Positions 4,555-22,949 of a stretch of DNA of 64,000 bases are shown here, one piece after another. Below the pieces are notes generated by a model. It did no database searches and was not told where the DNA came from. It saw nothing but the letters and a program-made list of their open reading frames with translations. Source of the DNA: Fibrobacter sp. Its GTDB lineage: Bacteria > Fibrobacterota > Fibrobacteria > Fibrobacterales > Fibrobacteraceae. Within the stretch, counting starts at the first letter, position 1. Each line of letters begins with the position of its first letter. The translations under genes and the position numbers were made by a program. Where the stretch lies: NCBI GenBank assembly GCA_024398835.1, contig JAKSIK010000001.1, positions 62,001 to 126,000 of the forward strand. Direction: 5' to 3'.

Positions 4555-4562
4555 TATCTTTG
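4555..4562 (+). promoter_or_regulatory. -10/-7 box for a leaderless AlkD-like mRNA
   Basis: TATCTTTG at 4555-4562, with TATCTT ending eight bases before the ATG at 4569. It matches the TAnnTTTG form. A further AT-rich segment with TTGTCA near 4521 lies upstream, but its spacing does not suit this box. Confidence 0.5.
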
Positions 4563-4568
4563 AGAGCG

Positions 4569-5231
4569 ATGTTACGGTTTACACAAGAAATACTGCTCGC
4601 TTTGCGCGCCATCGCCAACGAAGAAGAATCTCACGAAATGTCCAAGAAGGCGCGCGAACAATTTGACTTTTTAGGAATCAACGTGGTGCCGCGTCGTGAA
4701 GTCACGTACCCCATCTTTGACAGGAACCCGCCCAAGACGGATGTGGAACTTGTGAATAGGGTGGAGGATATGTGGTCTCAGCCCTACCGCGAGATTCAGT
4801 ATGCCGCCTGCGACTATCTCTTCCGTCATAAGGAGATGCTTGGAGGGCAACATCTGAACTTTTTGAAGAAGCTCATCAAGACCCGTGCCTGGCGCGATAC
4901 GGTGGATACCATTGCCACCTGCATTCTTGGGGACTTGGTTTTAAGGCTTCCTGCACTCCGTTCCAAGATTACGGCTTGGATTCGCGACCCCAACGTGTGG
5001 GTGCGCCGCAGTGCCATCATCTTCCAGATTCAGTATAACGCCCGTACCGACTGGCCCCTTCTCCGGCAGTTCTGCCTCACCTGCGCTCAGGATGATGAAT
5101 ATTATATCCGGAACGGCATTGGGAAGGCTCTCATCGCCTACGCTCGCGTGAATCCTATGGAAGTGCGCCGCCTGGTGCAGGATAATTCCTTCTGCGATCA
5201 GACGACACAAGAAGTTCTTCGAGTGGTGTAA
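4569..5231 (+). CDS. AlkD-like HEAT-repeat DNA alkylation repair protein
   Basis: 220 residues from the ATG at 4569; a TTG three codons upstream is less likely. The whole protein is helical repeats with the AlkD signatures YREIQYAACDYL, a TRAWRDTVD-type helix and DPNVWVRRSAI. AlkD glycosylases excise bulky or cationic N3- and N7-alkylated purines without base flipping. The WRDTVD segment corresponds to the family's W/D catalytic surface (aligned by eye). TrkA-like gene 5237 starts five bases after the stop, so the two are cotranscribed although functionally unrelated. Confidence 0.85.
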   Translation: MLRFTQEILLALRAIANEEESHEMSKKAREQFDFLGINVVPRREVTYPIFDRNPPKTDVELVNRVEDMWSQPYREIQYAACDYLFRHKEMLGGQHLNFLKKLIKTRAWRDTVDTIATCILGDLVLRLPALRSKITAWIRDPNVWVRRSAIIFQIQYNARTDWPLLRQFCLTCAQDDEYYIRNGIGKALIAYARVNPMEVRRLVQDNSFCDQTTQEVLRVV

Positions 5232-5236
5232 ACATT

Positions 5237-5893
5237 ATGGCTTCAAAACAATTCGTAGTAATCGGCCTCGGGAATACTGGGTATTTCCTGGCTAGACATT
5301 TGACGGCTTTGGGTCATGATGTGATGGTCATTGACCCCAGTCCCGAAAAGATTCAGGACATTTCCAGCTCTGTCTCTCAGGCGGTGGTGGCCGATGGCAC
5401 CCGCAAAAAGCAGTTGCAGGCCTTACCCCTTTCTAAGGTGGATGCGGTCATCTGCTGCATTGGCGAGGACTTGGAAGCCTCTCTCCTCACGATTCTCAAC
5501 CTGAAAGAGCTTGGCGTCAAGAACATCATCGCAAAGTCCAGCAGCCCGGAACATACCATCATTCTTGAAAAGCTCGGCGTGGAAGACATCTTCCATCCGG
5601 AGCGAGACATGGCTGTTTCTCTGGCGGAGCGCCTGAATCGCCCCAACATGCTGGATTACCTCCCCTTCATGGAAGGCTTCTCCATCGTGGAGATTGTGTG
5701 CCCCAAGGACTTCATTGGAAAGACTTTGAAAGAGCTTTCCCTGACTCACAAGTATGGCGTGCAGGTCATTGCCATCCGTGATCCCTTGGAACCCACCCCC
5801 AAGATTGGTAATATTGCCGATTACGTGCTCCAGGAGCAGGACGTGTTATTCCTGATTGGCCCCAACGAGGCCCTGGATACCTTCAAAGGATAA
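5237..5893 (+). CDS. TrkA/KtrA-type RCK potassium channel regulatory subunit
   Basis: 218 residues. The N-terminal Rossmann RCK domain begins FVVIGLGNTGYFLARHL with the GxGxxG motif and an acidic residue at the end of beta-2 (VIDPS), typical of NAD(H)/nucleotide binding. A C-terminal RCK_C domain (about 140-218) includes IGKTLKELSL and LIGP. It gates TrkH/KtrB-type potassium uptake in the inner membrane. No membrane pore subunit lies nearby, which is unusual because ktrA and ktrB are often adjacent. It is cotranscribed with the AlkD-like gene. Confidence 0.88.
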   Translation: MASKQFVVIGLGNTGYFLARHLTALGHDVMVIDPSPEKIQDISSSVSQAVVADGTRKKQLQALPLSKVDAVICCIGEDLEASLLTILNLKELGVKNIIAKSSSPEHTIILEKLGVEDIFHPERDMAVSLAERLNRPNMLDYLPFMEGFSIVEIVCPKDFIGKTLKELSLTHKYGVQVIAIRDPLEPTPKIGNIADYVLQEQDVLFLIGPNEALDTFKG

Positions 5894-5911
5894 TTTTTCT
5901 TAAAATACCCC

Positions 5912-5954
5912 TTGACACTCTCTTGTTGCATTTGTTATATTGTAATTATTACAA
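5912..5954 (+). promoter_or_regulatory. Rubrerythrin promoter with PerR-type operator
   Basis: TTGACA at 5912-5917, exactly 17 bases, then TTATAT at 5935-5940. Directly against the -10 lies TTGTAATTATTACAA (5940-5954), a perfect 15-base 7-1-7 palindrome. It matches the known PerR box TTATAATNATTATAA at 12 of its 14 defined positions. The operator covers the predicted transcription start, so binding would repress. Confidence 0.8.
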
Positions 5955-6012
5955 AAATAACAAACAAGCGAATAAAACAACTAAAGTTCCGCATGGCGGA
6001 AAGGAGTGAAAA

Positions 6013-6567
6013 ATGAAGGTATGGGTTTGTAAGGTTTGCGGTTATGTGCACATGGGTCCGGAAGCTCCGGAAGAATGCCCGCAGTGCCATGCTCCCAAGA
6101 GCAAGTTCTTTGAGAAGGTGGAGCAGACCGCTGGTAAGATTGTTTGGGCCGATGAACATAAGGTGGGCATTGCCCAGGGTCTCGATGCCGAGGTGGTGCA
6201 GGGCCTCAAGGAGAACTTCGCCGGCGAATGTACCGAGGTGGGAATGTATTTGGCCATGAGCCGTCAGGCTGACCGTGAGGGCTATCCTGAAGTGGCGGAA
6301 GCCTACAAGCGCATCGCCTTTGAAGAAGCGGAACATGCTGCCAAGTTTGCGGAACTCTTAGGAGAAGTGGTGTTCCCGGACACCAAGAAGAACTTGGAAC
6401 TTCGTGTAGCCGCCGAAGCGGGCGCTACCGAGGGTAAACTTGCTCTCGCCAAGCGCGCCAAGGAACTGGGTTATGATGCCATTCATGACACCGTTCATGA
6501 AATGTGCAAGGACGAAGCCCGCCACGGAAGCGCCTTCCAGGGTCTTCTGGGCCGTTACTTCAAGTAA
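6013..6567 (+). CDS. Reverse-type rubrerythrin (peroxidase)
   Basis: 184 residues. Cys6, Cys9, Cys22 and Cys25 form an N-terminal rubredoxin-like Fe(Cys)4 site, followed by a ferritin-like four-helix diiron domain with ExxE/ExxH patterns (for example [28 protein letters not shown]). Having rubredoxin first is the arrangement called reverse rubrerythrin, found in anaerobes. It reduces hydrogen peroxide with electrons from NADH via a reductase. AAAGGAG (5999-6005) is a good ribosome binding site. The PerR-type operator and the adjacent Fur/PerR gene fit peroxide-induced expression. Confidence 0.95.
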
Positions 6568-6576
6568 TTGGGTGTA

Positions 6577-6606
6577 GGTGGGCCCCTTTGGGGCCCGCCT
6601 TTTTTA
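6577..6606 (+). terminator. Rubrerythrin terminator
   Basis: GGTGGGCCCC (6577-6586), loop TTT and GGGGCCCGCC (6590-6599), then six T. Its T-run merges with the TATATT box just before the Fur/PerR gene. Confidence 0.93.
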
Positions 6607-6619
6607 TATTTTAGGTTGT

Positions 6620-7027
6620 ATGCAAAATCCTGTTATTCTGTTGCAAGAACGTGGCATTAGGCCTTCCATCCAGCGGGTGGAGGTTTTGCGGTATTTGATG
6701 GGCGTGACGACGCACCCTTCTGTAGATACCATCTATCAGGCTTTGCAGGAGCAGTACCCCAACATGTCCCGGACCACCGTCTATAACACGCTGGAACTTT
6801 TGGATAGCAAGGGCTTGGTGCTGACTCTGGATTTTGGAGAGGGCTTTCTCCGTTACGACGCAACGACGGAACCGCACAGCCACTTCATGTGCAATGCCTG
6901 CGGTCAGGTGACGGACATTTTTGAATCCCCGAAGGGTTGCGAATCCATGCTCCCCAAGGGCTATGTCTTGAAGGGCGCTGCTCTTTATTTGCACGGACTG
7001 TGCAATCACTGCGCTCAGAAAAAATAA
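6620..7027 (+). CDS. perR: Fur family regulator, probably PerR
   Basis: 135 residues. It has a winged helix with the family pattern HPSVDTIYQAL...SRTTVYNTLELL, then a dimerisation domain with HSHFMCNACGQ and the terminal CNHC, giving two CxxC pairs for the structural zinc. It lies just downstream of a rubrerythrin whose promoter bears a PerR box, which favours PerR over Fur or Zur. In PerR, metal-catalysed oxidation of histidines releases DNA. The ATG at 6620 is chosen because the in-frame TTG upstream lies inside the terminator. TATATT at 6605-6610 suggests a very short or absent leader. A second PerR box is not seen in front of this gene. Confidence 0.85.
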   Translation: MQNPVILLQERGIRPSIQRVEVLRYLMGVTTHPSVDTIYQALQEQYPNMSRTTVYNTLELLDSKGLVLTLDFGEGFLRYDATTEPHSHFMCNACGQVTDIFESPKGCESMLPKGYVLKGAALYLHGLCNHCAQKK

Positions 7028-7050
7028 AAAAGCCTCTAGTTGTAGAGGCC
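7023..7050. terminator. Bidirectional terminator between perR and the 7074 gene
   Basis: GCCTCTA (7032-7038), four-base loop, TAGAGGC (7043-7049). The minus strand has the better T-run (the plus-strand A-run at 7027-7031), so it mainly serves the minus-strand gene; it can also serve perR. Confidence 0.75.
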
Positions 7051-7073
7051 TGTCTTAGTTGTATTTTTGATTT

Positions 7074-7640
7074 TTAGAATACTGGTGCGGCGGAAGTTTT
7101 TTCTCCGCTCTCGTCTTTCTTTTCTTTTGCCAGCGCTCTGTGGGTAACATTTCCAATGGCAAAATAGCGGCTGTCTGTTTTTATGATGGATGTGTAGGCA
7201 TCAAGGGCTCTGACTCCATACCATTGTTCATAAATATTACGGCCTTCGTGTAAGTCCTTTTCAGTAAGGGTTGCATCGCTGGCGTGTTTCTTGTACTTCA
7301 AATCAAACTGTTCGGACATGTAGGAGACAGCCTCAAATACTTTTGGGAGCCGTTCTTCTTCCACTCGGCCTGTACGGATTTCAAAGGCATAGAATTTGTC
7401 ATTCTGGTTGAAGAGGAATTCAATCTGGACAAGCAACTCCCCGAACTGGTAGGTGGAAAGCCCCATATTGCCGTGGGAACTCTGCCCGTAGGGTTCGTAG
7501 CCTCTTTTAAGGAGTTCTTCCGCAACGGTCTGGCGAGTAGCACCGAAGGGAATGCCCGCAAATTTGTTGTAATCCTGCGCAAAGCCTTCCACAGCGAAGG
7601 TGAGGACGAAAAACAGTATGATAGTTGTGGACTTCAGCAT
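7074..7640 (-). CDS. Secreted protein of unknown function
   Basis: 188 residues from the ATG at 7640. The frame runs 12 codons further upstream, but the signal peptide (MLKSTTIILFFVLTFAVEGFA, cleavage before QDYN) starts here. The mature part begins FAGIPFGATRQTVAEELLKRG, a pattern seen in small periplasmic proteins that compare a predicted flow or fold change, but no function is assigned. The charged C-terminus (KEKKDESGEK) looks unstructured. A TATATT motif about 30 bases upstream of the start may be its promoter. Confidence 0.75.
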   Translation of the reverse strand: MLKSTTIILFFVLTFAVEGFAQDYNKFAGIPFGATRQTVAEELLKRGYEPYGQSSHGNMGLSTYQFGELLVQIEFLFNQNDKFYAFEIRTGRVEEERLPKVFEAVSYMSEQFDLKYKKHASDATLTEKDLHEGRNIYEQWYGVRALDAYTSIIKTDSRYFAIGNVTHRALAKEKKDESGEKTSAAPVF

Positions 7641-7701
7641 AGCTAAATTCAAAAAATTGTAAGCGAAATATAGCAAATGGCTTCGTTTTAATTAAGGGAT
7701 G

Positions 7702-7733
7702 TTTGTGGATTTTTTTGTAATATCTATATTTTG
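7702..7733 (+). promoter_or_regulatory. aroC promoter, Bacteroidetes-like and leaderless
   Basis: TTTG at 7702-7705, 19 bases, then TATATTTTG from 7725. This is the spacing and nearly the sequence of the Bacteroidetes -33 TTTG / -7 TAnnTTTG promoter. TATATT ends seven bases before the aroC ATG, so the mRNA should start at or next to the start codon. Confidence 0.65.
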
Positions 7734-7737
7734 AAAC

Positions 7738-8817
7738 ATGTCTAGCACCTTTGGAAAAATATTTACGGTAACCACATGGGGTGAATCCCATGGCCTCGCT
7801 GTTGGGGCTGTCGTGGATGGCTGCCCTGCGGGAATTCCCCTAACAGAAGCGGATGTTCAGGAATTTCTGGACCGTCGCCGCCCTGGTCAAGGTGCTGTGA
7901 CTACGGCTCGGAACGAAAAAGACCAGGTGAAGATTCTTTCTGGCGTTTTTGAAGGGAAGACCACGGGAACGCCCATCAGTTTTGTGGTTTTCAATGAGGA
8001 CCAGCACAGTGCCGATTACAGCGATGTGCAAAAGTGGTACCGCCCGAGCCACGCGGATTTGAGCTATGATTTGAAGTATGGGTTCAGGGATTATCGCGGT
8101 GGTGGCCGTAGTTCTGCCCGCGAAACCATCGGCCGTGTGGCCGCAGGTGCTGTAGCGCGGAAATTTCTGGAAAAAGTTGCAGGAACGGAATTCCTGGCTT
8201 GGGTCAGTTCCATAGGCGATGTAGATTGCCCGACGTTTAATGCGAGCGATATATCTCGCGAGGCTATTGAGGCTTCTGCGGTTCGTTGCCCGGACAAAGA
8301 TGCTTCTGCCCGGATGGAAGCAGCTATTTTAGATGCCAAGAAGAATGCGGATAGCATTGGTGGCGTTGTGAGCCTTCTGGTGAAGAATGTACCCGCTGGT
8401 TTGGGCGAACCCGTTTTTGATCGTTTGGATGCTCTTCTTGCTCAGGCCATGCTTTCCATTCCGGCAAGCAAAGGCTTCGAAATCGGAAGCGGTTTTGCGG
8501 CTGCTCGCATGAAGGGCAGTGAACATAATGACGACATCTTCTTTGATGGCGCCTTCCATACCCGCACGAATAATGCAGGCGGTTCTGTTGGCGGCATCAG
8601 CAATGGAGAGAATATCTTCTGCCGCATCGCCTTCAAGCCGACGGCTACAATTGCCCAATCTCAAAAGACCGCTAGTCGGGATGGTGAGAATGGGGAACTT
8701 TTGGCGAAAGGACGTCATGACCCCTGTGTGGCTGTTCGCGCTCCAGTGATTGTAGAAAGTATGGCGGCGTTGGTGCTTGCCGATCTCTATCTGCAGCAAA
8801 AGCGTCAGTCTCTCTAA
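7738..8817 (+). CDS. aroC: Chorismate synthase
   Basis: 359 residues, full length. AroC converts 5-enolpyruvylshikimate-3-phosphate to chorismate with reduced FMN, the last common step of aromatic amino acid synthesis. Signatures seen are the N-terminal FGKIFTVTTWGESHG, RRRPGQG, the FRDYRGGGRSSARET block and GGSVGGISNG. The transcript appears leaderless. lpxK follows nine bases after the stop, which makes an unusual aromatic/lipid A gene pair that is probably an operon. Confidence 0.97.
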   Translation: MSSTFGKIFTVTTWGESHGLAVGAVVDGCPAGIPLTEADVQEFLDRRRPGQGAVTTARNEKDQVKILSGVFEGKTTGTPISFVVFNEDQHSADYSDVQKWYRPSHADLSYDLKYGFRDYRGGGRSSARETIGRVAAGAVARKFLEKVAGTEFLAWVSSIGDVDCPTFNASDISREAIEASAVRCPDKDASARMEAAILDAKKNADSIGGVVSLLVKNVPAGLGEPVFDRLDALLAQAMLSIPASKGFEIGSGFAAARMKGSEHNDDIFFDGAFHTRTNNAGGSVGGISNGENIFCRIAFKPTATIAQSQKTASRDGENGELLAKGRHDPCVAVRAPVIVESMAALVLADLYLQQKRQSL

Positions 8818-8826
8818 GAGGGCGTT

Positions 8827-9684
8827 GTGCCTCTATTCCTGAAATACCTTCTAGCTCTGGTCTACAGGATTGGGTATTTGCTTCATCATCATTTTTGCCT
8901 CAAATCGGGGAAGCCTCTTTCCCATGCCCAGCTAATTGTGGTTGGGAGTTTTTTGGTCGGTGGCGCTGGAAAGACACCTTTTTGTCTGTGGTTGGTGTGG
9001 AGGATTCCTGCAAATTACAAGGTGGCGGTTTTATGCCATTCCAGGGCTTGGGATGAAGTTAATTTGTATAAAATGAAGTTGTGCGATTGCGCGAATGTGC
9101 GGGTGTTTGCCACAAAAAATCGGTACAAAACGGCGCATGAAATTGATATGCAGTTTGATTACATCATTTGCGATGATGGCTTTGAGGATTCCCGCCTAGT
9201 GGGGGCAAAAGTTGTCCGTTTAGATTGGTCGCAACCGCCCACGTCTCTTAAGGATTTGATTCCGCTAGGAAAACATCGCAGTTTGGTGCAAGATCATGCG
9301 GCTCCGGCTTTGGTTGCACGCTGCTATGGTGCGGAGAGGGATGTTTCTTTTGCAATTGATGGCGTTAATGCTGATGGATTTTCGGGTCGTTCTGCTGTAG
9401 TTTGTGGGCTAGGAGATCCAACCCGCTTTGTGGAGGATTTGAAGAAGGTTGGAGTGGACGTGCAGATGGTGATTTACCGCCCCGACCATGATTCGAAATT
9501 TGAGACCGCTGTAATTTCCGTCATGGAGCTTGCAGATGCCGTATGGATGACAGAAAAGGATGTTTGTCGATTGTCCGCGGAGTTGCGGGGAAATTCTAAA
9601 ATCAGGGTGGTGGTGCAAAAAAATTTTGTGGCTCCGAACTTCGCTAAAAAAATGGAACTGTCATTTCACCTGAGCTTCATCTAG
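8827..9684 (+). CDS. lpxK: Tetraacyldisaccharide 4'-kinase
   Basis: 285 residues. LpxK phosphorylates the 4' position of the lipid A disaccharide at the inner membrane. An N-terminal hydrophobic helix precedes the P-loop GSFLVGGAGKTP (about residues 39-50), and the family block DYIICDDGFEDSRL carries the conserved Asp pair (DDGF). The start is GTG. The protein is shorter than typical LpxK (about 320-330), with a compact C-terminus, but the key motifs are present. It shows that the organism makes lipid A and fits the Gram-negative envelope. Confidence 0.9.
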   Translation: MPLFLKYLLALVYRIGYLLHHHFCLKSGKPLSHAQLIVVGSFLVGGAGKTPFCLWLVWRIPANYKVAVLCHSRAWDEVNLYKMKLCDCANVRVFATKNRYKTAHEIDMQFDYIICDDGFEDSRLVGAKVVRLDWSQPPTSLKDLIPLGKHRSLVQDHAAPALVARCYGAERDVSFAIDGVNADGFSGRSAVVCGLGDPTRFVEDLKKVGVDVQMVIYRPDHDSKFETAVISVMELADAVWMTEKDVCRLSAELRGNSKIRVVVQKNFVAPNFAKKMELSFHLSFI

Positions 9685-9735
9685 ACGACGTTGTAAGAAA
9701 TTTGTAAATTTACCTGTGTTTTACAGGAGTGCGGT

Positions 9736-11199
9736 ATGACATTGACGAAACGAATTTCAGAACTTTTACAGTCCTTATCTGCAGGAATTCCCGAACGCGA
9801 ATTTTTTATCCAATTGGGATTTCTGTCTACTCTTATTGGGGAACCCTTTTATTTGTATGGACGTGCTGGTTCCGGAAAGTCGCTAATTATTGAACGTTTG
9901 ATTGCTGCTTTTAAGAACGCAAAGGTGCTGAAAATTGGCAAGCGTGAACAGGAAATCCCTGAAAAGTTAAACGCCTTTGACATTATCGTGTTTCAGAAGT
10001 TTGATCCGGCTGAGGAAGACGAAAAGACTCAAGTCCACATTGCCTTGCAGGACGGCGATAAGGCTTCCGTTATCATTTCCGGAGAACTTCGCCCTGAGGT
10101 GGCGCTTAACCGTGGTGAGATTGTAGATGAAATCACGCTGACCATCGCCCTTCCAGATAGCATTTCTTCAGGAGCGCTTTGCTCGCTACTCCAAACCCCA
10201 GGTGATGTGACCGCGACGCATGTTCCCCTTGGAATGGCGGTATCTGCAGAGGAACGTACCCTTTGGAATGAGGAAATCAAGAAGGTCTCGTTGTCGGCGG
10301 ATTCTCTGAATGTTATTGGCAAGGTTGCGGAAATTTGCGAGCAGAATAATTTTTATGTATCCATCCGCAAATGGATTGCCCTCACCAATATGGTAAAAGC
10401 CGTGGCCTTTTTCAATGGCCGCTCGGAAACGCAATTGACGGATACGTTCTTCCTTGGAACATCGATTTGGGGCCGTAATACTTCTAACAAGATTATCGCA
10501 GACAAGTATCGTGAAATTGTCTATAGCGCTCTGTTTAAGGATGCTCCGGGTGTTTTGAATGATCCTTACGATGGAGACCAACTTTTGGAACGTGTGCACA
10601 AATTATTGAATCGTAGCAATAATTTGTATGAAACAAAAGTGTTCAATAATGAGTCTTGTCTTTTCTATCGCATTACCGTTGCAGGCGAACCTACACCGTT
10701 GTACGCTCCGCTTCGCTATGTGGAAACGGAACAGGATTTTCACCCGTATAACGAATTACGTCAAGAAGAAAAACGGGTGCTTTGCAATTATCATGGGACA
10801 TCTCTCTGCTCTATCGCTATTGATTCTTCCATAAAGTCTGTGGGTTTGCGTAATTCTACAGCTCGTTCTGCCTCTGCAGTTGTCGGAAAGTATGAGGATT
10901 TCGCAAATGTGCCCTCCTATGTCATTCGGGAAAATGACCCTACCATCATTGCCCAGAAGCAAGAGGAATTGGATGCTATTCGCAAGGAAATCCAGGAAGT
11001 TTCTGAAAGGGAAAGCAAAAACTTGCAGGTGATGCGTGATGTATACAAGAACATCAAGGCTGCGCAGGAAGACTTGTTCTGCAATAAGGTTTTCTTTGAC
11101 GAGGCGCAGGCTTTGGTCAAGAAAAGCTTTGATGCTTCTACAACGGCAATCAATAAGCTTAAAGAAGCCCACGAACTTATAGCTTCTAAAAGCATCTAA
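9736..11199 (+). CDS. RavA-like MoxR-family protein with degenerate ATPase site
   Basis: 487 residues. The N-terminus (PEREFFIQLGFLSTLIGEP) and the segment SIRKWIALTNMVKAVAFFNGR resemble RavA, the MoxR AAA+ partner of a VWA protein. Walker A is intact (GRAGSGKS, 42-49). The Walker B position reads FDIIVFQK (81-88), so the Asp-Glu pair is replaced by Gln-Lys, and the sensor 1 Asn region reads ISGELRPEV. It may bind but not hydrolyse ATP. The C-terminal 100 residues are a predicted coiled coil (from about residue 395, EELDAIRKEIQEVSERES). AGGAG lies upstream at 9725-9729. No VWA partner gene is adjacent; a true MoxR lies convergently at 11282-12265. Confidence 0.75.
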   Translation: MTLTKRISELLQSLSAGIPEREFFIQLGFLSTLIGEPFYLYGRAGSGKSLIIERLIAAFKNAKVLKIGKREQEIPEKLNAFDIIVFQKFDPAEEDEKTQVHIALQDGDKASVIISGELRPEVALNRGEIVDEITLTIALPDSISSGALCSLLQTPGDVTATHVPLGMAVSAEERTLWNEEIKKVSLSADSLNVIGKVAEICEQNNFYVSIRKWIALTNMVKAVAFFNGRSETQLTDTFFLGTSIWGRNTSNKIIADKYREIVYSALFKDAPGVLNDPYDGDQLLERVHKLLNRSNNLYETKVFNNESCLFYRITVAGEPTPLYAPLRYVETEQDFHPYNELRQEEKRVLCNYHGTSLCSIAIDSSIKSVGLRNSTARSASAVVGKYEDFANVPSYVIRENDPTIIAQKQEELDAIRKEIQEVSERESKNLQVMRDVYKNIKAAQEDLFCNKVFFDEAQALVKKSFDASTTAINKLKEAHELIASKSI

Positions 11200-11220
11200 C
11201 GCACTGCGTTTTAACGAAGA

Positions 11221-11252
11221 AAGCCTCAAGAGAAATCCTGAGGCTTTTCTGT
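11221..11252 (+). terminator. Terminator after the RavA-like gene
   Basis: AAGCCTCA (11221-11228) pairs with TGAGGCTT (11239-11246), followed by TTTCTGTTTT. Confidence 0.85.
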
Positions 11253-11281
11253 TTTATAAGGGTGTCGTCGCAGTCCGTAAA

Positions 11282-12265
11282 TTACGGAACTTCCACTGTA
11301 TCCAGAATCTTCTGGACCACAACTTCCGGCGTGATTTCTTCGGCCTCTGCTTCAAAGCTCAAAATCAAGCGGTGGCGGAGAACTTCCATTGCCACAGCTT
11401 TCACATCTTCGGGCGTAACATAGGCGCGGCCCTGAATGAAGGCGTGTGCCTTTGCCGCTTGCGCAAGACCGATGGAGGCGCGGGGAGAGGCGCCCACTTC
11501 TACAAAGCCCACTAAATCGCTACGCTTGATGCTGCCCGGATCGCGGGTGGCGAGAACCAGGTTCACAATGTATTCGCGGACGCGTTCGTCCACATAGACC
11601 TGCTTCACCAATTGCCGAGCGTTCAGGATGTCTTCCTTAGTAGCTACGGCCTTGGGTTGGCGAAGGCCAGCACCGCTAACCGCATCCAAAATCTTCATTT
11701 CATCAGCCTTGTTGGGGTAGCTGACTTTCACCTTCAGGAGGAAACGGTCCACCTGGGCTTCAGGGAGCGGGTATGTTCCTTCCTGCTCGATGGGGTTTTG
11801 CGTCGCTAGCACCAGGAAGGGTTCGTCCAGTTTGAAGGTTTCATCGCCGATGGTGATGTGCCGTTCCTGCATGGCTTCCAGAAGGGCGCTTTGGACTTTG
11901 CTGGGTGCGCGGTTGATTTCGTCAGCCAGCACCAGGTTTGTGAAAAGCGGGCCCTTTCGAGTTTCAAACTTTGCTTCTTTTGCATTATAAATGGTAGTAC
12001 CCAAGAGGTCTGCAGGGAGCAGGTCTGGCGTGAACTGGATGCGCTTAAAATTCAGGGAGACGGCATCGGCAAAAGCCTTGACTGCGGTTGTTTTTGCAAG
12101 GCCAGGAAGACCTTCCAAGAGCACGTGGCCATCGGCGAGAATGCCAGTCAAGATGCTCTCCACCATGGATTTCTGGCCAATCACCGTATCTTCAACTTCG
12201 TTCAGCAGATTTTGACAGAAAACGCTCTGCTGCTTGATTTTTTCAGAAAGTTCTTGAATATCCAT
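11282..12265 (-). CDS. MoxR family AAA+ ATPase
   Basis: 327 residues. Walker A is in LLEGLPGLAKTTAVKAF and Walker B with the arginine-rich MoxR signature is LADEINRAPSKVQSALLEAM; sensor 1 is LATQNPIEQEGTYPLPEAQ. These are hallmarks of MoxR, a chaperone-like ATPase that works with VWA-domain and Bat proteins. GAGG precedes the ATG. It is the last gene of a minus-strand group, 95 bases after the BatD-like gene. A VWA-domain partner is not in the window. Confidence 0.93.
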   Translation of the reverse strand: MDIQELSEKIKQQSVFCQNLLNEVEDTVIGQKSMVESILTGILADGHVLLEGLPGLAKTTAVKAFADAVSLNFKRIQFTPDLLPADLLGTTIYNAKEAKFETRKGPLFTNLVLADEINRAPSKVQSALLEAMQERHITIGDETFKLDEPFLVLATQNPIEQEGTYPLPEAQVDRFLLKVKVSYPNKADEMKILDAVSGAGLRQPKAVATKEDILNARQLVKQVYVDERVREYIVNLVLATRDPGSIKRSDLVGFVEVGASPRASIGLAQAAKAHAFIQGRAYVTPEDVKAVAMEVLRHRLILSFEAEAEEITPEVVVQKILDTVEVP

Positions 12266-12360
12266 ATCAACAAACCTCTTTTATAATTACAAAGGGATAT
12301 TACCTTGTTTCTCGCAAAAATCTACAAATTAATTTTTGAAAAAACAATTTTGTGTGCCTG

Positions 12361-13170
12361 TCAATCCTCTTCTTCCACTTGCATGAGCTTCATGGCGAGT
12401 TTCCAGGTTTCCCGGTTTTCAAAAGTGTCCCGAGCCAGTGCGCCGTAGCGGGCGTGGGCGAAGGCTTGAATGATGCCTTCCCAACCTTCTAGGGCGCCTT
12501 CTTTCTGCAGAGTTTCCAGATTTTCGCTGCCGAATTTGTGGCCTGCGAATTTTTTGCAGGCTTGCTCCAGCTCCAGAAGCCACTGGCGGCCATCTGCCAC
12601 GTTGATGCGCTGTTTGAGAATGAGCATCTGTTCTCTGAGTTCCAGCTGGAATTCACGTTCGGTGCGGCTGGTGAGGGCCCGCTGCTTGTTTCTGCGGGTG
12701 CGGAGGATGGCGGCTGCTGCGACGATGGCGCCCACGGCGAATCCTACGGCAATGGGTGTGCTGTTGACGGGCTCTTTTACTTGCAGGGGAAAGGGTTCCG
12801 TTTTGAGTTGGAGCGGAACTCCCATTGAGGTTGGAATTTCAAATTGGAGGGCGGGAATGGCGAGACTTCCGGTGTCTTCGGCGGCAATTTTATACTTGAA
12901 AAGTACCGAAGCCTTTTCTTGCCCATCCACTACAGAGCGGCTGGATTCCTGAGACATGCTAATTTGCGTGAGGCCCTTGGCATTCGCGGAATTGGTGGGA
13001 AGTACGAGAAGTGAACTTCCGTTAACGCTCCAGCTTACTGTTACGGGGAATTCAAAGGTGTCGCCAACGTGGACGTTTTTTACGCAGCCAATGGTAATTC
13101 CAATTCCCAAGTCCTTTGGAGACGGGAGTTCTTGTGATTCCATGGGTTGGACTAGTGAATCTATAGCCAT
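12361..13170 (-). CDS. BatD-like membrane protein
   Basis: 269 residues. An N-terminal region (about 20-130) predicted as beta-sandwich has the phrasing of BatD-type proteins (VHVGDTFEFPVTVSW, GSLAIPALQFEI). One transmembrane segment follows (PIAVGFAVGAIVAAAAIL, about 138-156), with basic residues after it, then a helical cytoplasmic part (160-265). No classical signal peptide is visible at the N-terminus; the start used is three bases after the preceding stop. Placement before MoxR supports a Bat/MoxR function in envelope stress or complex assembly. The family call is by pattern and position. Confidence 0.65.
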   Translation of the reverse strand: MAIDSLVQPMESQELPSPKDLGIGITIGCVKNVHVGDTFEFPVTVSWSVNGSSLLVLPTNSANAKGLTQISMSQESSRSVVDGQEKASVLFKYKIAAEDTGSLAIPALQFEIPTSMGVPLQLKTEPFPLQVKEPVNSTPIAVGFAVGAIVAAAAILRTRRNKQRALTSRTEREFQLELREQMLILKQRINVADGRQWLLELEQACKKFAGHKFGSENLETLQKEGALEGWEGIIQAFAHARYGALARDTFENRETWKLAMKLMQVEEED

Positions 13171-13173
13171 AAT

Positions 13174-13839
13174 TTAAAAGTCCAGATTTCCTGTAGAAAG
13201 CCCTGTAACGGGAACGATTCGTTTTTCACCATTGCCACTAACGACGATTGCCATTCCAGTGAGGTAATTCATCCAGTGACTGGGAGTGAATTCGAAGTTG
13301 CAGAAATAGCCGAGGCAAGGCACAACCCATGCATCGTGGGTCGAAAAAATGTTGAACCGGGCCGTTCCCTTTTCGAACATCATTTGAACCAGTTCTTCCG
13401 CTTTTGGCCCGATGGGGAAGAATGCGGGATGGTCCTTGCCGTACATCCAGTTGCAGATGTTCTGGTAGAAGTGAGAGTTGAGTTGCTTGAGGTATTCGTC
13501 GTAATTGCGGACAAAATAATGCCCGAGAGAATCCATCACGTTGACTTTTGAGGCGGAGGGCCCGCCGGCGGTTTCGCGGCCTGCGGCAATCTGTTCCGCG
13601 GTTTCGATGCAGCGGCCTACGGGGCTTGAAAAATAGATGGCATCGCCAGATGTGGGGAAGAGCTTTCCGAGGGCGAAAGCTTCTGCACGGCCTTCATCGG
13701 TAAGCCCTACAAGGGCGCCTTTGTGGGCATCGCCTTCGGTAATGTGGCGACGCGTGCCATGCCGGATGAGCCAGAAAACGCGGTCATCGGGTTTGAGGGA
13801 GAGGAAGAAATCTTTGGCTTGGATGTAGTTGTTTGCCAT
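13174..13839 (-). CDS. Histidine phosphatase superfamily protein
   Basis: 221 residues. WLIRHGTRRH near residue 23 is the RHG motif whose His is phosphorylated in catalysis. FSSPVGRCIETAEQI gives the second Arg region, and STHDAWVVP near residue 165 supplies the second catalytic His. Branch 2-like features (no signal peptide, an HD-type motif) suggest an acid phosphatase or phytase-like fold, but the substrate is unknown. It lies in a minus-strand cluster, three bases before the BatD-like gene, and probably shares its transcript. Confidence 0.85.
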   Translation of the reverse strand: MANNYIQAKDFFLSLKPDDRVFWLIRHGTRRHITEGDAHKGALVGLTDEGRAEAFALGKLFPTSGDAIYFSSPVGRCIETAEQIAAGRETAGGPSASKVNVMDSLGHYFVRNYDEYLKQLNSHFYQNICNWMYGKDHPAFFPIGPKAEELVQMMFEKGTARFNIFSTHDAWVVPCLGYFCNFEFTPSHWMNYLTGMAIVVSGNGEKRIVPVTGLSTGNLDF

Positions 13840-16127: not shown

Positions 16128-16350
16128 AAGGCTGCAAAGTGGGGTGGCGCGGTTTGTGAATCGCCGGCCTACTTTGTAAGAGAATCCCGTGCTGCAACTG
16201 GCAAAACGCCAAGGCAAATTCGGGAACGGTCCCGCCGCTGTAAGGGAGGACGAAACCAGCAAAAACCAATGTTTGGCGGGCAGGCAACTGCGAAGCCAGA
16301 TGTGAAGGGGCTGGAAGTAGGATGATTCCCGAGTCAGAAGAACTGTAAGG
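16128..16350 (+). ncRNA. Cobalamin riboswitch
   Basis: The segment contains the B12-riboswitch landmarks in order: GAATCCCGTG (about 16182), GGGAACGGTCCCGCCGCTGT (about 16221, the conserved B12-box core), GCCAG (about 16294) and ATTCCCGAGTCAGAAGAAC (about 16324) closing the aptamer. It ends about 50 bases before a BtuB-like receptor start, with GAGG at 16391-16394. Such elements shut off expression when adenosylcobalamin is present, probably here by hiding the ribosome binding site. Outer boundaries are approximate. Confidence 0.9.
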
Positions 16351-16398
16351 CTCCACGGGCATGGCGCCCAAAGCGCTATGCTGCAACTTTGAGGCTGA

Positions 16399-18438
16399 AT
16401 GCGAGAGACGTTGGCTTTAACCACTACGGGAATCCGTAGATTACTTTGTGTGTGTCTTCCTGTGTGTGGATGGCTTTCTTTGGCAGTTGCTGGGGAAGGT
16501 CCTGTTCGCGATTTGGGAACTAGCGAAATTGTGAGTGCGGACTCTTTTGGGCAGTCGCAAAATCGCTTTTCCAGTTATGAAGAGATTTCGCCGGAGGCAT
16601 GGGAGGGTCGCGGTATTTCTGCGGCAGAACTGCTTTCCACTCTCACAGGCGTGGAGGCTCATTCCCAAGGTGGTGTAGGGAGTTTTCAGACCATCAGCAT
16701 TCGGGGAATTGCGAGCCAGGACATTTTGATTTGCGTGAACGGCGTTCCTCTCAATGATGGTAGCGGTGGTGCGGTGGATTTGGGCCGAATCGACTTGAAC
16801 CAGGTTGAAAAAATTGAGGTTTATAAGGATCGTGTGCCTGTAAAATTTGGCGGTTCGGGAGTTGGCGGCGCTGTAAATTTCATTACCAAGTCCGCAAAAG
16901 TTTCTAACCAGGAATCGTCGGGCAAATTCCTCGCCGCTTACGGAAGCCACAACTACTGGGAAACGGCAACTCAAATCAACTCCGCTATTACAGATAGTAT
17001 GGGCTTTACGGCGGCAGCTTCTGCAAGGCATTCCGACAATGATTATGAATTCAAGAGTGAAAACGGGACGCCTTACAATAAGGATGACGACTTTACGGCA
17101 AAGCGGGAGAATGCGGAATTTACGGAGTATTCGGGTAGTGCGGAACTTCGGATTTTGCATGGTAACGGCGCCTTCTCTACGCTTGCTTTCAGTGGCTCTT
17201 TCGCCGAAGGTGGAAATCCTGGACGCGGAGAATTTCAGACGAAAGTTGCAGGCTATGAAGGAGAAAATGCTACTCTCAGTTATCGCCTGGAATCGCCAGA
17301 GTTATTTGGCTGGCTGTGGCTTACGGCGGGCCTTTCGGGACGTTTTGAGAAGAACATTTCCCACTCTTACTATCCGCTGGATCACATCGGATACTTCTCC
17401 ACAGAATATCTAGAGTATGGTGCTGCGGGCTATCATCTGCTGCCGGAAATAACAGCGGAATATTTGGGTGAGCGACTTGCGGCAACGCTTCGGATTGCAG
17501 GCGGCCTCGACCGCATGGAGGCCCGCGGAACTTCTCGGGAGTGGGCGCTGGAACGCTCTTCCGGAAATGCCGCAGGCGAGGTAAACTTCCACATCACTCG
17601 CTGGCTCGCTACTTCGGGCGAGGCTTCCCTCCAGCTATTGCAAGATGATATCGATGGCGGAAAGTTCGTGCTCCCTACTGCAACGCAGAAACTGAAAACC
17701 GCCAGCAATCGGGACGCCTCCTACTCTTACCGCGGGGCGATTTTGCTGACACAGCCCGCAGGTTATTTTGGCGGGCATATAAGCCTCGGGCGTTTCTATC
17801 GTCAGCCGCAACTGATGGAATTGTATGGCGTCTACCCGGGGGTCGTTTCCAACCCGGATTTGAAGGAAGAAACTGCCCTGCGCTTTGAGGGCGGCCTCTT
17901 TGCCTCTACGCCAAAAAAAGTTTCGACACTGCGGGCCACTTACTACGAAACCGCCGTGGATAACGGGATTTACTGGGTCACAAGCGGTGCCTTTATGAAG
18001 GCTTTGAATGTGGGAGAGGTTCGCATTCGCGGGTTGGAATTGAATTTGGAAAGTCATCCGGCGAAATTCTTGCAGGTGCTGATGGGGGCTACGATTCAGA
18101 AGGCCTTGGACCACACGGATGATGTTGCTTACCGTGATAAGAATCTTCCTGGTGAACCTGTGCAGAGTTATTATACGGAAGCCAAGTTGCAGTTGCCCTT
18201 CCATTTTGATTTTATCTGGGCCAGTTCCTACCGCACCAAAATTTATGAAGACCGCGGAAATCGCCTGGAGCAGCCTGCGGTGCCCAACCATCGTGCCGCT
18301 TTAGGTTTTACACCTTATACGCAAACACGCTTTGTTTTTGCAGTCGAAAACATTACGGACGAAACGTATCGAAATGCCTATTCGCCTTTCCCCATGCCGG
18401 GGCGAGAATACCGGCTCACATTCACCCAGGGGTTTTAA
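16399..18438 (+). CDS. btuB: TonB-dependent cobalamin receptor, BtuB-like
   Basis: 679 residues. An N-terminal signal peptide precedes a plug domain (about 60-165) with ISAAELLSTLTGVEAHSQGG, ISIRGIASQDILICVNGVPL and IEVYKDRVPVKFGGSGVGGAV. A 22-strand barrel of TonB-receptor type ends in LTFTQGF with terminal Phe. It imports a bulky ligand across the outer membrane using TonB energy. Control by a cobalamin riboswitch makes vitamin B12 or another corrinoid the likely ligand. The ATG has GAGG five bases upstream. The lipoprotein gene 18486 follows after 47 bases. Confidence 0.93.
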   Translation: MRETLALTTTGIRRLLCVCLPVCGWLSLAVAGEGPVRDLGTSEIVSADSFGQSQNRFSSYEEISPEAWEGRGISAAELLSTLTGVEAHSQGGVGSFQTISIRGIASQDILICVNGVPLNDGSGGAVDLGRIDLNQVEKIEVYKDRVPVKFGGSGVGGAVNFITKSAKVSNQESSGKFLAAYGSHNYWETATQINSAITDSMGFTAAASARHSDNDYEFKSENGTPYNKDDDFTAKRENAEFTEYSGSAELRILHGNGAFSTLAFSGSFAEGGNPGRGEFQTKVAGYEGENATLSYRLESPELFGWLWLTAGLSGRFEKNISHSYYPLDHIGYFSTEYLEYGAAGYHLLPEITAEYLGERLAATLRIAGGLDRMEARGTSREWALERSSGNAAGEVNFHITRWLATSGEASLQLLQDDIDGGKFVLPTATQKLKTASNRDASYSYRGAILLTQPAGYFGGHISLGRFYRQPQLMELYGVYPGVVSNPDLKEETALRFEGGLFASTPKKVSTLRATYYETAVDNGIYWVTSGAFMKALNVGEVRIRGLELNLESHPAKFLQVLMGATIQKALDHTDDVAYRDKNLPGEPVQSYYTEAKLQLPFHFDFIWASSYRTKIYEDRGNRLEQPAVPNHRAALGFTPYTQTRFVFAVENITDETYRNAYSPFPMPGREYRLTFTQGF

Positions 18439-18464
18439 CCCCGTGTAATACAAAATGTATTACA
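18429..18464. promoter_or_regulatory. Double palindrome between btuB and the propeller lipoprotein
   Basis: GGGGTTTTAACCCC (18429-18442) overlaps the btuB stop. Immediately after it, TGTAATACA-AAA-TGTATTACA (18444-18464) is a perfect 9-bp inverted repeat. It could be an operator, an mRNA stability hairpin, or part of a second promoter for the lipoprotein gene (AT-rich to 18476). There is no T-run, so it is not a classical terminator. Confidence 0.55.
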
Positions 18465-18485
18465 TAAAATATAACAAGGAAAAAC

Positions 18486-19664
18486 ATGAAAAATAAAAAC
18501 ACTAAAATTAATGCTCTGCGGTATTTATTGCCGATTGCGCTGCTAATTATCGCGGCTTGTGGCGATAATTCCTCGTCGGCGGAATCTTCTGGACCATCTT
18601 CGTCTAGCGAAATGGATTGCGATGGAACCGGCTGCGTCACTAGCGCTTGCACTGACCGGACAGTTTTCATTTTTGGCACGGATTACAAGGCTGGAGAACT
18701 GCGCTGGATTGAAGAAAAGGCCGAGCATGCCGCGGTGATTTCAGAAGACAAACTGGATTTTTATCAGGATTCAAAAATCATCAATGCGGGCGGAAACTTT
18801 TTTGTGCTGGAGCGTGCGGGTGCAGACAACTTAACATTGCTGGACCCTTGCAAAAAAGAAGTGCTGTGGCAAACGGCACTGGAAGATTACTCCAATCCCA
18901 CGGACGTCATTATGTCGGATGAATCTTCGGCCTGGGTGGCTTTGGAAGGCACACAGAACTTCATCAAAGTTTCCGCAGCCGATGGAAAAATCCTGAAAAC
19001 GGTGAAGACGGATGCTTTTACAAGCAAGGGCGGGACATCTCCAAATTTGGCGGATTTTGCTGTGCGTGGAGATACGCTGTTTGCAATTTTTCAGCGGTAC
19101 GTCTATGATGCCGCAACCTATACTTCCACATATCCGAAGGGCCTTTTGGCCTGGTATGATTTGAAGACAGGCAAATTGCTGGATACCTTGAGCCTTGCGA
19201 CGAAAAATCCGGCGATGATGGCTGCGACTTCTGAAAATCTCTATGTGGCGACTCAGGGTGAATATGATGAAATGTGGTCTTTGCCTGCAGATGAGAATCG
19301 CGGTATCGAGAAGGTGGATTTGACTAAGAAAACATCTAGTTTGTTTGTAACGGGCGCAAAACTCGGCGGTGGTGCTACGGATGTTGCTGTTGATGAAAAA
19401 AATGCCCTCGCTTATGTGGCGGTTTCCGCGGGATTTTCAAAAGCAGTTGTCAGCGTAAATTTGAAGGATGGTTCCGTCAAAGAGCTGAAGGACATTTCCG
19501 GAGCTGATGGCGGCTTTTATTTTGACGCAAAATCTGGACTGCTCTATACGGGTGACAGAACTTTTGGTGATGTACTTTTTTATGATGGCAAAGATGTGCT
19601 CGTCGTAGAAAAAGGCGATGTGGCGCCACTTCCACCATACGGCATCACCGTTAGTGGAAAGTAA
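18486..19664 (+). CDS. Surface beta-propeller lipoprotein, BtuG-like candidate
   Basis: 392 residues. Lipobox IIAAC near residue 25, then a Ser-rich linker (GDNSSSAESSGPSSSS) typical of Fibrobacter exported proteins. The remainder shows repeated blade-like units in which a name-value pattern recurs (WVALEGTQNFIKVSAADGK, LLAWYDLKTGKLLDTLSL, LAYVAVSAGFSKAVVSVNLKDG), characteristic of seven-bladed YncE/DUF5074-type propellers. In Bacteroides, BtuG is a lipoprotein propeller next to BtuB that captures cobalamin with very high affinity. The same neighbour and the upstream riboswitch suggest the same role here; the binding function itself is inference. AAGGAA precedes the ATG. Confidence 0.75.
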   Translation: MKNKNTKINALRYLLPIALLIIAACGDNSSSAESSGPSSSSEMDCDGTGCVTSACTDRTVFIFGTDYKAGELRWIEEKAEHAAVISEDKLDFYQDSKIINAGGNFFVLERAGADNLTLLDPCKKEVLWQTALEDYSNPTDVIMSDESSAWVALEGTQNFIKVSAADGKILKTVKTDAFTSKGGTSPNLADFAVRGDTLFAIFQRYVYDAATYTSTYPKGLLAWYDLKTGKLLDTLSLATKNPAMMAATSENLYVATQGEYDEMWSLPADENRGIEKVDLTKKTSSLFVTGAKLGGGATDVAVDEKNALAYVAVSAGFSKAVVSVNLKDGSVKELKDISGADGGFYFDAKSGLLYTGDRTFGDVLFYDGKDVLVVEKGDVAPLPPYGITVSGK

Positions 19665-19686: not shown

Positions 19687-20694
19687 TTATTTGGTGAGGC
19701 TGTAGCAGGTGCTGCGGCCTCCCTTATTTTGCTTGACAGTGCCTTGTTCTATGAGGCTTTGCAAATCTCGGAGTGCAGTGTCGTGGCTCGTGCCGACAAG
19801 TGCAGCGTATTCTTTTACGGTAAAGGGCTGTGGCAATGTTCCGTTGAAGACCGCTTCGAAAAGCTTCTGCTCACGAGCGCTATTTTTGCCAACAGCGCCT
19901 TGGGCTTGGTGCTGCTTGGCGAAAACTTCCGAGGAAATCTGCTCAATGGTTTTCTGGATGGCATCGCTCATTCGGGCGAGGAACCACAAAATCCATTCCG
20001 TCAAGTCTCCATTGCCGGCCTGGCATTTGGCTAGAATCTGGAAGTATTCCTCTTTTTGCTGGAGAATCTCCGCATTCAGTGCGTAGCTGCAGCATTTCGT
20101 GCCCTCGCAGCGGGCGAGAAGCATGGCGGAAAGCATCCTGGCGATGCGTCCGTTAGCATCGTCGAAAGGCCGTATGGTTAGAAACCAGAATTGGGAAATG
20201 GCAGCTTTGATGACTCCGTCTTCGTCGTCGGTTTCGAACCAGTTGATAAAGCGTTCCATTTCTGCTTGGAGTCTGTAGGCACTGACACCCTGGAATTTCT
20301 TTTCGCCAAAAATGACTTCGGAATCCTCTTCCCTAAAATGGTGGGCTTGGTTCTGCCCCAGGGAGGCGTGCCAGTTGAAAATGCGCTCTTCTGTCAGAGG
20401 CTGTTCTGCCTTTTGCAACATGCCCAGGTGATTCTTGACTTCGGCCTTTGTGGAATCGTTCCGCAACAAGAGTTCGTTTTGAATGGCGTCGGCATTTGCG
20501 GTTATTCCATCGATGGCAAAATTTGCGGCAATATCCTTGGCGAGAATCTCTGTTGCACGGCCATTGAAATCCACCAGTTTGGCGAGACCCAGCAGGTGCC
20601 CCTGCTCCATGCGGCATTTGCCGAGAGCCTTGACCACGCTTTTGTGGTTGTAGCGGAAATTGGTCCAGTCTGGGAATTGGTGGATATACAGCAT
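19687..20694 (-). CDS. DUF4172-Fic family protein with altered catalytic motif
   Basis: 335 residues. The N-terminal DUF4172-like region (1-45, IHQFPDWTNFRYNH) precedes a Fic domain and a C-terminal winged helix (about 270-335). Fic enzymes transfer AMP or other groups to protein hydroxyls using HPFx(D/E)GNGR. Here the motif reads IRPFDDANGRIAR, so the catalytic His is Arg175 (CGG, complement of 20170-20172) and the first Gly is Ala. The inhibitory helix motif (S/T)xxxE(G/N) reads NFAIDG (58-63), with both key residues changed. Adenylylation activity is doubtful; it may be a pseudoenzyme or a DNA-binding regulator. A TATATT box ends eight bases before the ATG. Confidence 0.85.
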   Translation of the reverse strand: MLYIHQFPDWTNFRYNHKSVVKALGKCRMEQGHLLGLAKLVDFNGRATEILAKDIAANFAIDGITANADAIQNELLLRNDSTKAEVKNHLGMLQKAEQPLTEERIFNWHASLGQNQAHHFREEDSEVIFGEKKFQGVSAYRLQAEMERFINWFETDDEDGVIKAAISQFWFLTIRPFDDANGRIARMLSAMLLARCEGTKCCSYALNAEILQQKEEYFQILAKCQAGNGDLTEWILWFLARMSDAIQKTIEQISSEVFAKQHQAQGAVGKNSAREQKLFEAVFNGTLPQPFTVKEYAALVGTSHDTALRDLQSLIEQGTVKQNKGGRSTCYSLTK

Positions 20695-20765: not shown

Positions 20766-22949
20766 ATGGGTGTACAATCTTTTAAAGTTTTGGGTCTTGC
20801 AATTTTAGCGGCCGCTAGTTTTGCAACTGCAGGTTTCATTCCTATCGAGGGCGTCTTTATTCAGGCGTGGCTCTATGCCAGCTGGGATAATCCAGACCAC
20901 TGGAAGCAATTGAACGGGGATAATCCAAACCCAAAAATCACGGCGGAGAACGCTTGGGATTTGGAGGCCCAATACTGGAAGAGTATGGGTGTCACGCAGG
21001 TCATCGATGGCGACATTGCCTACAAGAATGTGGGCGATTCTTTGTGGCATGCCAGTTATCCGGGCCACTTGAAAGATAGCGTGGAATATGGCGGTAATGT
21101 GGACAAGAACATCATTATGGCCAAGGCGAAGAAGTATGGATTCAAGGTGTATCTCGGCTTGGGCGTGGACAATGCCTGGTGGGGCTGGGATCTTTTGAGG
21201 GACGAGGATTTCCAGGGTTTTAAGAATGCCATGATGAAGGCTGGGGCTTTCGCTCGCGACTTGTACGAAGTCTATGTGGACTCCATGGGTTACGGCGAAA
21301 CCTTTGGCGGATTCTATAGCGTGTATGAGATTTGGAATCACAATCATTTGAATGAAGGGGACTCCATTCGCGACGAGTATGCAAAGCGTCTGGCTGCAGG
21401 TTTTAACATTCTCATTGATTCCCTGAACAAGGTGGACCCCAAACGCCCTCTGCTTTTCAGCCAGTTCGCTACGGAGGATTTGGATGCGTTGGATATCCGG
21501 GATACGATTTATAATGATAATGGCTCAGTGAAAAGGGCTGGCCCCCGTGGCTATGGAACGCTTAAAAATACAGAACTTTTCTGGCAGAAGTTCTTTGAAA
21601 CTGCCCATTTCCGTGAACAGGACAAGTGCCTCCCTATGGATGCTGTGGGCGGTGGCGGCCAGAAGATTGACCGCGTGGAGGCTTGGACTGCGGCATACGA
21701 AAATGCGGTGAAGAATAGCGGAAGTAAAATCGGCTACTACGCCAATATTGAAGATTTTGCTCAGCCGGATATGCCTTGGCATCAGGAACAGGCCTATACG
21801 CCGCTGTATGGCCGCAGTTATATCAGTGCGGGCCACATCGGTCGCTTTGCCCGTCAGATTGCTATTGCTCAGCGCCATACCAAGGGCATCTTCAATTTTG
21901 CGTTCTCCCACTATCATTCTCCATTGAATGCAATCCCTGGTTATTATGAGGTGTTGTTGAACTATTTGCAAACGCAGCAGGGTGATTTGGTGGCGCCCAC
22001 GCTTCCGAAGACTTTGCATGTGATTGACACCTTGGCCTACAATGAATCCCAGTCGGCGAAAAAGGGCTATTCTGTTAATGATCGGGTGTTCAAATTCTAT
22101 TGGGAGGGGGCCCTGGACAATAAGTGGAATGGGGCTTTGGACGATCACGGCATTCATCGTGTGAAAATCAACCAGCCTGTGAGAACCTATGGTCATGATT
22201 CAGAAATAGCGGATTCCACGGTGGCCTATGCGACTGCCACTCGTTCAGAATCGGGCGTTATGGCCCACGAACCGGATTCCATCTACTTCCCCCATAGTAC
22301 GGGTCGCGAATGCTCTGGTGAGGCGGGAGTGGAAGAATACTGCTTCCTTCCGCGGTTCCATGCGGACGGAAATTTTAATGAAAAGATGAGGTATGCTACA
22401 GATAAAGTATTTTTTGATAACGACAAATTCGTCTTCATCACTATGGATGTTTGGGGCAACGAGGCAGTCTCCAAACCATTTACTCTGCATGAGGCCGCAG
22501 CGGGAATTGGTGGCCGTTACGACATCACGCTGGAACTGGATTCCGTGCGGATGTTTAAGGTGCCTGTGAAGGATACTTTGCGGAGTACATTTGCCCTGGA
22601 TTCCAGCAAGTGGGTGCAGGATGGGCCGGATACGCGTTCTAGTTCTTCTTCAGGAGAAAATCTGAGTAGCAGTAGCTCTAGCGCAAATGACTCTAGCAGT
22701 AGTTCTACAGAAATTTTGCCGAATTTCCACTATTCTGTCAATGGTTTGAAGGTCTTCCGTGATGGCTCTGTTTGGAAACTGCAATACAACACGAATAGGG
22801 CCGGAACATATCGCCTGGTGATATATGCTCCTACGGGAGCCCGCATGCATGTGGCGAATGTGTGGTTGAAGGACGGCTCAAATGTTCTTCCTTTGCCCAA
22901 GAATAACGTAGGCTATTCCAGATTCTATATCCAGCTGTTGCCGCGGTAG
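20766..22949 (+). CDS. Secreted glycosidase-like protein, DUF4434-like
   Basis: 727 residues. A signal peptide (cleavage near ATA/GF) is followed by a large TIM-barrel-like domain beginning GVFIQAWLYASW and containing WKSMGVTQVIDGD, KAKKYGFKVYLGLG, GFYSVYEIWNH and YYANIEDFAQPD. This resembles DUF4434-type glycoside-hydrolase-like proteins. A beta-rich region (about 430-610) and a Ser-rich linker (about 625-655, typical of Fibrobacter) lead to a short C-terminal domain (GTYRLVIYAPTGARM...) of the sorting type used by type IX secretion. It probably acts on plant cell-wall polysaccharide outside the cell; no catalytic residues are assigned. Confidence 0.7.
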   Translation: MGVQSFKVLGLAILAAASFATAGFIPIEGVFIQAWLYASWDNPDHWKQLNGDNPNPKITAENAWDLEAQYWKSMGVTQVIDGDIAYKNVGDSLWHASYPGHLKDSVEYGGNVDKNIIMAKAKKYGFKVYLGLGVDNAWWGWDLLRDEDFQGFKNAMMKAGAFARDLYEVYVDSMGYGETFGGFYSVYEIWNHNHLNEGDSIRDEYAKRLAAGFNILIDSLNKVDPKRPLLFSQFATEDLDALDIRDTIYNDNGSVKRAGPRGYGTLKNTELFWQKFFETAHFREQDKCLPMDAVGGGGQKIDRVEAWTAAYENAVKNSGSKIGYYANIEDFAQPDMPWHQEQAYTPLYGRSYISAGHIGRFARQIAIAQRHTKGIFNFAFSHYHSPLNAIPGYYEVLLNYLQTQQGDLVAPTLPKTLHVIDTLAYNESQSAKKGYSVNDRVFKFYWEGALDNKWNGALDDHGIHRVKINQPVRTYGHDSEIADSTVAYATATRSESGVMAHEPDSIYFPHSTGRECSGEAGVEEYCFLPRFHADGNFNEKMRYATDKVFFDNDKFVFITMDVWGNEAVSKPFTLHEAAAGIGGRYDITLELDSVRMFKVPVKDTLRSTFALDSSKWVQDGPDTRSSSSSGENLSSSSSSANDSSSSSTEILPNFHYSVNGLKVFRDGSVWKLQYNTNRAGTYRLVIYAPTGARMHVANVWLKDGSNVLPLPKNNVGYSRFYIQLLPR

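Follow-up and report, generated by a model that had tools for sequence, protein, structure and literature searches.

The window, the 64,000-nt stretch of Fibrobacter DNA that was analysed, contains a cobalamin riboswitch followed on the same strand by the genes for a TonB-dependent receptor (P0001) and a lipoprotein (P0002). In the nearest relative, a Fibrobacter MAG from horse faeces, the lipoprotein is 91% identical. The locus has the following features:

16157–16364, + strand: cobalamin riboswitch aptamer (RF00174; Infernal 63.8 bits, gathering score 31.5, E 1.9e-13)
16358–16382, + strand: stable hairpin between the aptamer and the receptor start, with a 10-pair stem and the loop CCAAA (fold and scan)
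16399–18438, + strand: BtuB-like TonB-dependent receptor, 679 aa (plug domain, profile A3)
18486–19664, + strand: BtuG-like lipoprotein with a Ser-rich linker and a predicted beta-propeller, 392 aa (lipobox, profile A2, structure matches)
19696–19721, + strand: terminator-like hairpin 3′ of the lipoprotein gene, with a stem of 11 pairs and then a T-rich tail (consensus scan)

The covariance-model score of the aptamer exceeds the gathering cut-off, and it is the sole cobalamin riboswitch match in the window and in the assembled genome. The receptor and lipoprotein genes are separated by 47 bp, and the gene after the lipoprotein encodes a Fic-domain protein on the opposite strand. The first-pass annotation had placed a cobalamin riboswitch, a TonB receptor and a Ser-linker lipoprotein in one run, and this arrangement is borne out by the RF00174 match, the TonB plug domain of the receptor (PF07715, 2.5e-17) and the lipobox of the lipoprotein (...LLIIAAC, Cys25).

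The hairpin at 16358–16382 is a possible element of the expression platform; its fold energy is ordinary compared with shuffled sequences (z −0.65). In the window its loop is complementary to 5 nt within the aptamer, a complementarity that is not conserved among relatives. We do not claim a kissing loop between aptamer and hairpin, because just 5 of 28 sequences show one in a naive scan. The terminator-like hairpin comes from a scan for the consensus only, in which the number of sites was near chance.

Similarity of the receptor to BtuB

Searched as a single sequence against solved structures, the receptor has E. coli BtuB as its best match (2.2e-13). For the profile of the receptor family (A3), the best ten PDB matches are all BtuB. 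The top match is BtuB1 of B. thetaiotaomicron (8blw_A, 2.2e-45, full length), followed by E. coli BtuB, and hhalign of the profile with Bacteroidota BtuB gave 5.8e-40. Against Bacteroidota BtuB the window receptor alone scores 191, compared with 68–85 for iron-side paralogues and 41 for PqqU. The curated BtuB equivalog model TIGR01779 is not passed (102 bits versus a cut-off of 599.7), and in the receptor tree the sequences group by phylum on long branches, the known BtuBs themselves not being one clade. For these two reasons we call the receptor BtuB-like rather than BtuB. E. coli BtuB is likewise a TonB-dependent receptor and is under cobalamin riboswitch control; it differs in having no lipoprotein partner, and it is separate from the window receptor in the tree.

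The closest known systems are the BtuB–BtuG pairs of Bacteroides (BtuB1G1, BtuB2G2 and BtuB3G3). BtuG is encoded beside BtuB in riboswitch-regulated loci (PMC6143338), as seen in the Bacteroides loci L072 and L073, and forms a lid on BtuB that binds B12 very tightly (PMC10404256, PMC6143338). The Fibrobacter operon shares with them the cobalamin riboswitch and the order of a receptor gene and then a propeller lipoprotein gene, and the best profile matches are BtuB1 for the receptor and BtuG1 for the lipoprotein. In contrast, the Fibrobacter lipoprotein has a Ser-rich linker after the Cys, where the BtuG of Bacteroidetes has an export-signal motif, the operon is devoid of btuF, btuC and btuD, and a single-sequence search does not recognise the lipoprotein as BtuG.

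A TonB receptor and a seven-bladed propeller lipoprotein are also combined in XusA–XusB of Bacteroides (PMC13142918), an iron-siderophore system; the blade number of the Fibrobacter protein is not fixed, and XusB is among the structure matches of the lipoprotein models. It is nevertheless extremely unlikely that the window locus encodes such a siderophore piracy pair. Its riboswitch is of the cobalamin type, profile A3 favours BtuB (2.2e-45) over XusA (9gbc, 1.7e-30), and a Pfam scan that admitted E values up to 0.1 gave a DUF4374 (XusB) match for no member of the lipoprotein family profile (A2). Furthermore, a better candidate for XusA exists in Fibrobacter: a separate receptor, encoded beside feoB, with a XusA match at 3.2e-62.

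On the iron side, positions 4093–13809 of locus L106 (genome G019) contain two TonB receptor genes, each beside a gene for a propeller-like lipoprotein, that flank feoB. One of the two receptors is the one matching Bacteroides XusA (9GBC), and related matches occur in G020, G027 and G116. The XusA match suggests a putative XusAB-like xenosiderophore system in Fibrobacter.

The lipoprotein family and its predicted fold

In the lipoprotein, Cys25 is followed by the Ser-rich linker and a beta-rich body, and this Cys is invariant across the 27 rows of alignment A1. Acidic residues after the Cys (CGD...) are common in this genus; we know of no lipoprotein export signal for Fibrobacterota. At least one other lipoprotein of the genome has a Ser linker, and the linker was dropped as a diagnostic argument because it is not specific to P0002. 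A DUF4434 protein at 20766–22949 of the window has a Ser-rich linker close to the C-terminal end, and Ser linkers were found in further proteins of the same genome.

The first-pass annotation had claimed no sequence similarity to BtuG beyond the fold. This is correct for single sequences: a search with the lipoprotein sequence alone does not reveal it as BtuG, and taken singly it does not match a small BtuG profile (score 24.6). At the profile level, weak similarity exists. Profile A2, built from 25 members, was searched against 177,635 PDB sequences, and its best three matches are BtuG1 entries (7.5e-4, 8.6e-4 and 0.005). The hhalign value for the lipoprotein family against BtuG is 98%. With four single Bacteroidota BtuGs the family profile reached 52–63, compared with 32, 31, 22 and 18 for YncE, BamB, Pgl and TolB of E. 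coli, respectively. Some family members match the Pfam family DUF5074, which known BtuGs match as well. The reverse search of whole genomes with the BtuG profile found the operon lipoprotein in G015, G017, G020 and G051 only, and lends weak support to BtuG likeness. No relatives were found in the viral contigs scanned.

For comparison, a propeller lipoprotein from the iron side of a Fibrobacter relative, encoded beside a XusA-like receptor and feoB, scored 92% against BtuG. Similarity to BtuG is therefore not specific to B12, and the similar values point to a larger set of propeller lipoproteins paired with TonB receptors. The case for a B12 role of the window lipoprotein is thus built on its riboswitch, the receptor and the context of the operon.

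A beta-propeller fold is predicted by profile and model searches alike, the models being of low confidence (mean pLDDT 48 for a single-sequence AlphaFold run and 50 for a two-sequence run). We rejected them as a basis for the number of blades or a ligand site, and blades are not confidently readable from one sequence either, the PQQ_2 match of P0002 (8.6e-6) lying below the PQQ_2 cut-off. Matches to propellers are strong (Z about 16 at a model pLDDT of about 50). The comparison with BtuG that had been proposed gave a divided result: in a structure search with the first model BtuG entries occupy ranks 1–7, whereas with the second BtuG is not first and lies close to BamB and a hydrazine synthase subunit, with no separation from YncE or others either. 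A VIA-align comparison of the second model (pLDDT about 50) had no BtuG among the 50 rows listed.

Propeller folds are common, and the weak PQQ_2 (BamB) similarity would also fit a periplasmic housekeeping propeller of the YncE or BamB type that follows the receptor gene by happenstance. A propeller gene adjoining a TonB receptor gene has a precedent in E. coli, where yncE adjoins the PQQ receptor gene pqqU. However, PqqU–YncE has no B12 link, YncE scores far below BtuG against the family profile, as does BamB, and the lipoprotein is linked to the riboswitch across the phylum, in one genus with the riboswitch directly 5′ of the lipoprotein gene (see below). A housekeeping function is thus very unlikely.

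Linkage of riboswitch and lipoprotein across the phylum

In a first set of 61 related genomes, a single-sequence search detected the lipoprotein family in 48 genomes; 36 genomes from the same genus were available. For 46 of 49 lipoprotein places in this set, a cobalamin riboswitch lies 2.0–3.2 kb upstream on the same strand. A wider sample of the phylum yielded a family match in 109 of 111 genomes, a count that includes a few matches to a related paralogous lipoprotein; all 83 good genomes and all 36 genera are represented. Riboswitch matches within the E-value limit of the search are present in 107 of the 111 genomes, and in 104 the match is above the Rfam cut-off. Among the 107 genomes for which a lipoprotein place was listed, 102 have the riboswitch upstream of that gene and on the same strand; the five exceptions concern loci on short or end-truncated contig pieces. 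As roughly 0.1% is expected per gene by chance, coincidence is ruled out. For the loci that were read, the receptor gene lies between the riboswitch and the lipoprotein gene. In the four genomes of genus g20, a riboswitch match is found 40–74 nt directly 5′ of the lipoprotein gene itself; all four matches are weak, with 25–31 bits and thus under the Rfam gathering score of 31.5.

Seven genomes of distant relatives that were missed by the single-sequence search (G040, G043, G050, G052, G053, G055 and G056) show the order riboswitch, receptor, propeller when the profile is used. In G040 (L082, 1238–8868) the pair is followed by genes for a histidine phosphatase, a CobQ–CobU fusion, CobT and CobS in one cobalamin riboswitch operon. 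CobU and CobT genes precede the pair in G052 and a BtuF gene follows it, while in G056 the pair is followed by genes for BtuF and an ABC ATPase. These adjoining cobalamin-salvage and BtuF genes tie the receptor–lipoprotein pair to cobamide uptake.

A subset of Fibrobacter genomes (G003, G005, G025, G029, G033 and G034) encodes a lipoprotein of about 500 aa that is matched by P0002 in two pieces, their order in the DNA being reversed relative to P0002. For example, on contig C8 of G003, positions 58375–59073 match residues 130–362 and positions 59191–59559 match residues 58–182. From the order of these matches, the longer protein looks like a circularly permuted propeller.

Cobamide supply and a model for the operon

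The MetH activation domain is present in 34 of the 37 genomes scanned, including the window genome. CbiC, which marks de novo corrin synthesis, was above the cut-off in 1 of the 37, a distant one, and the 23 Fibrobacter genomes scanned for CobS all lack it. The commonness of MetH, the near absence of CbiC and the lack of CobS matches suggest that these organisms are auxotrophic for cobamides and take them up preformed. The window assembly is about 72% complete, and absences in that assembly alone prove little.

Each genome has one strong FecCD permease; in the window genome the BtuC model is its best match, and an ABC ATPase gene follows. A periplasmic binding protein is present in nearly all genomes scanned. 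The btuF and btuC/D candidates of the window genome are located outside the operon, with no detected riboswitch in front. In the stretch 4784–8365 of locus L101 (contig 3 of G000) lie the one FecCD permease gene and the ABC ATPase gene. A gene for a 320-aa Ala/Pro-rich protein without a Pfam match precedes them there and a TraB-family gene follows; a gene for an Ala-rich protein is also found at the corresponding place in L102 and L103 from related genomes.

We favour, with a probability of roughly three in four, a cobalamin-repressed operon for corrinoid uptake across the outer membrane, with the propeller lipoprotein capturing corrinoids for delivery to the BtuB-like receptor. Low intracellular B12 would lead the riboswitch to permit expression of both genes. 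The lipoprotein, anchored via Cys25 and extended outward by its Ser-rich tether, would expose the propeller at the surface to collect corrinoids and would hand them to the receptor for TonB-energised import. The single FecCD-type ABC importer, encoded elsewhere in the genome, would carry them across the inner membrane, where they may feed cobamide enzymes such as MetH.

The same co-conservation is predicted if the operon serves B12 uptake and the lipoprotein has a structural or stabilising part alongside the receptor and binds no corrinoid of its own, similar to other receptor–lipoprotein pairs. BtuG ligand-site residues are not traceable in the lipoprotein at this divergence, which is compatible with such a role. 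We consider it unlikely, as BtuB-linked propeller lipoproteins with solved complexes do bind B12 (PMC10404256); the strongly acidic character of the lipoprotein (net charge −19), which several BtuGs share, is weak evidence in the same direction.

The genomic context gives good support to a function of the pair like that of BtuBG. The proposal that this mechanism extends to another phylum gains from the riboswitch, the BtuB-like receptor, the propeller lipoprotein and the Fibrobacter origin of the DNA. Its strict form, in which the lipoprotein is BtuG itself, is unproven, because the similarity is at profile level only, an iron-side propeller scores similarly, and the receptor tree shows no single BtuB clade. 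Competition for cobalamin in the gut, which the first-pass annotation predicted, would rest on the horse-faeces origin of the nearest relative.

A 2018 study that searched 313 genomes of human gut bacteria with BlastP at 1e-10 reported BtuG homologs only in Bacteroidetes (PMC6143338). Such a search could not have detected the Fibrobacter lipoprotein. Full-text literature searches (BtuG with Fibrobacter; Fibrobacter with lipoprotein and cobalamin riboswitch) retrieved no paper. It is thus probable that a second phylum has its own version of a B12 capture strategy described as exclusive to Bacteroidetes, with an origin tied to the crowded gut, and the presence of such a counterpart in all 36 sampled genera of Fibrobacterota changes that picture. 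The results offer a testable route of B12 acquisition for Fibrobacter, which has MetH and is without the cobamide synthesis markers tested, and they name the members of the lipoprotein family as candidates for binding assays. On balance, we lean towards the view that a phylum-wide B12 capture lid on a BtuB-like receptor either evolved within Fibrobacterota or was inherited from an ancestor shared with Bacteroidota. Surface B12-binding propellers would then predate the dense human gut setting that was invoked to explain BtuG, or have arisen independently of it.
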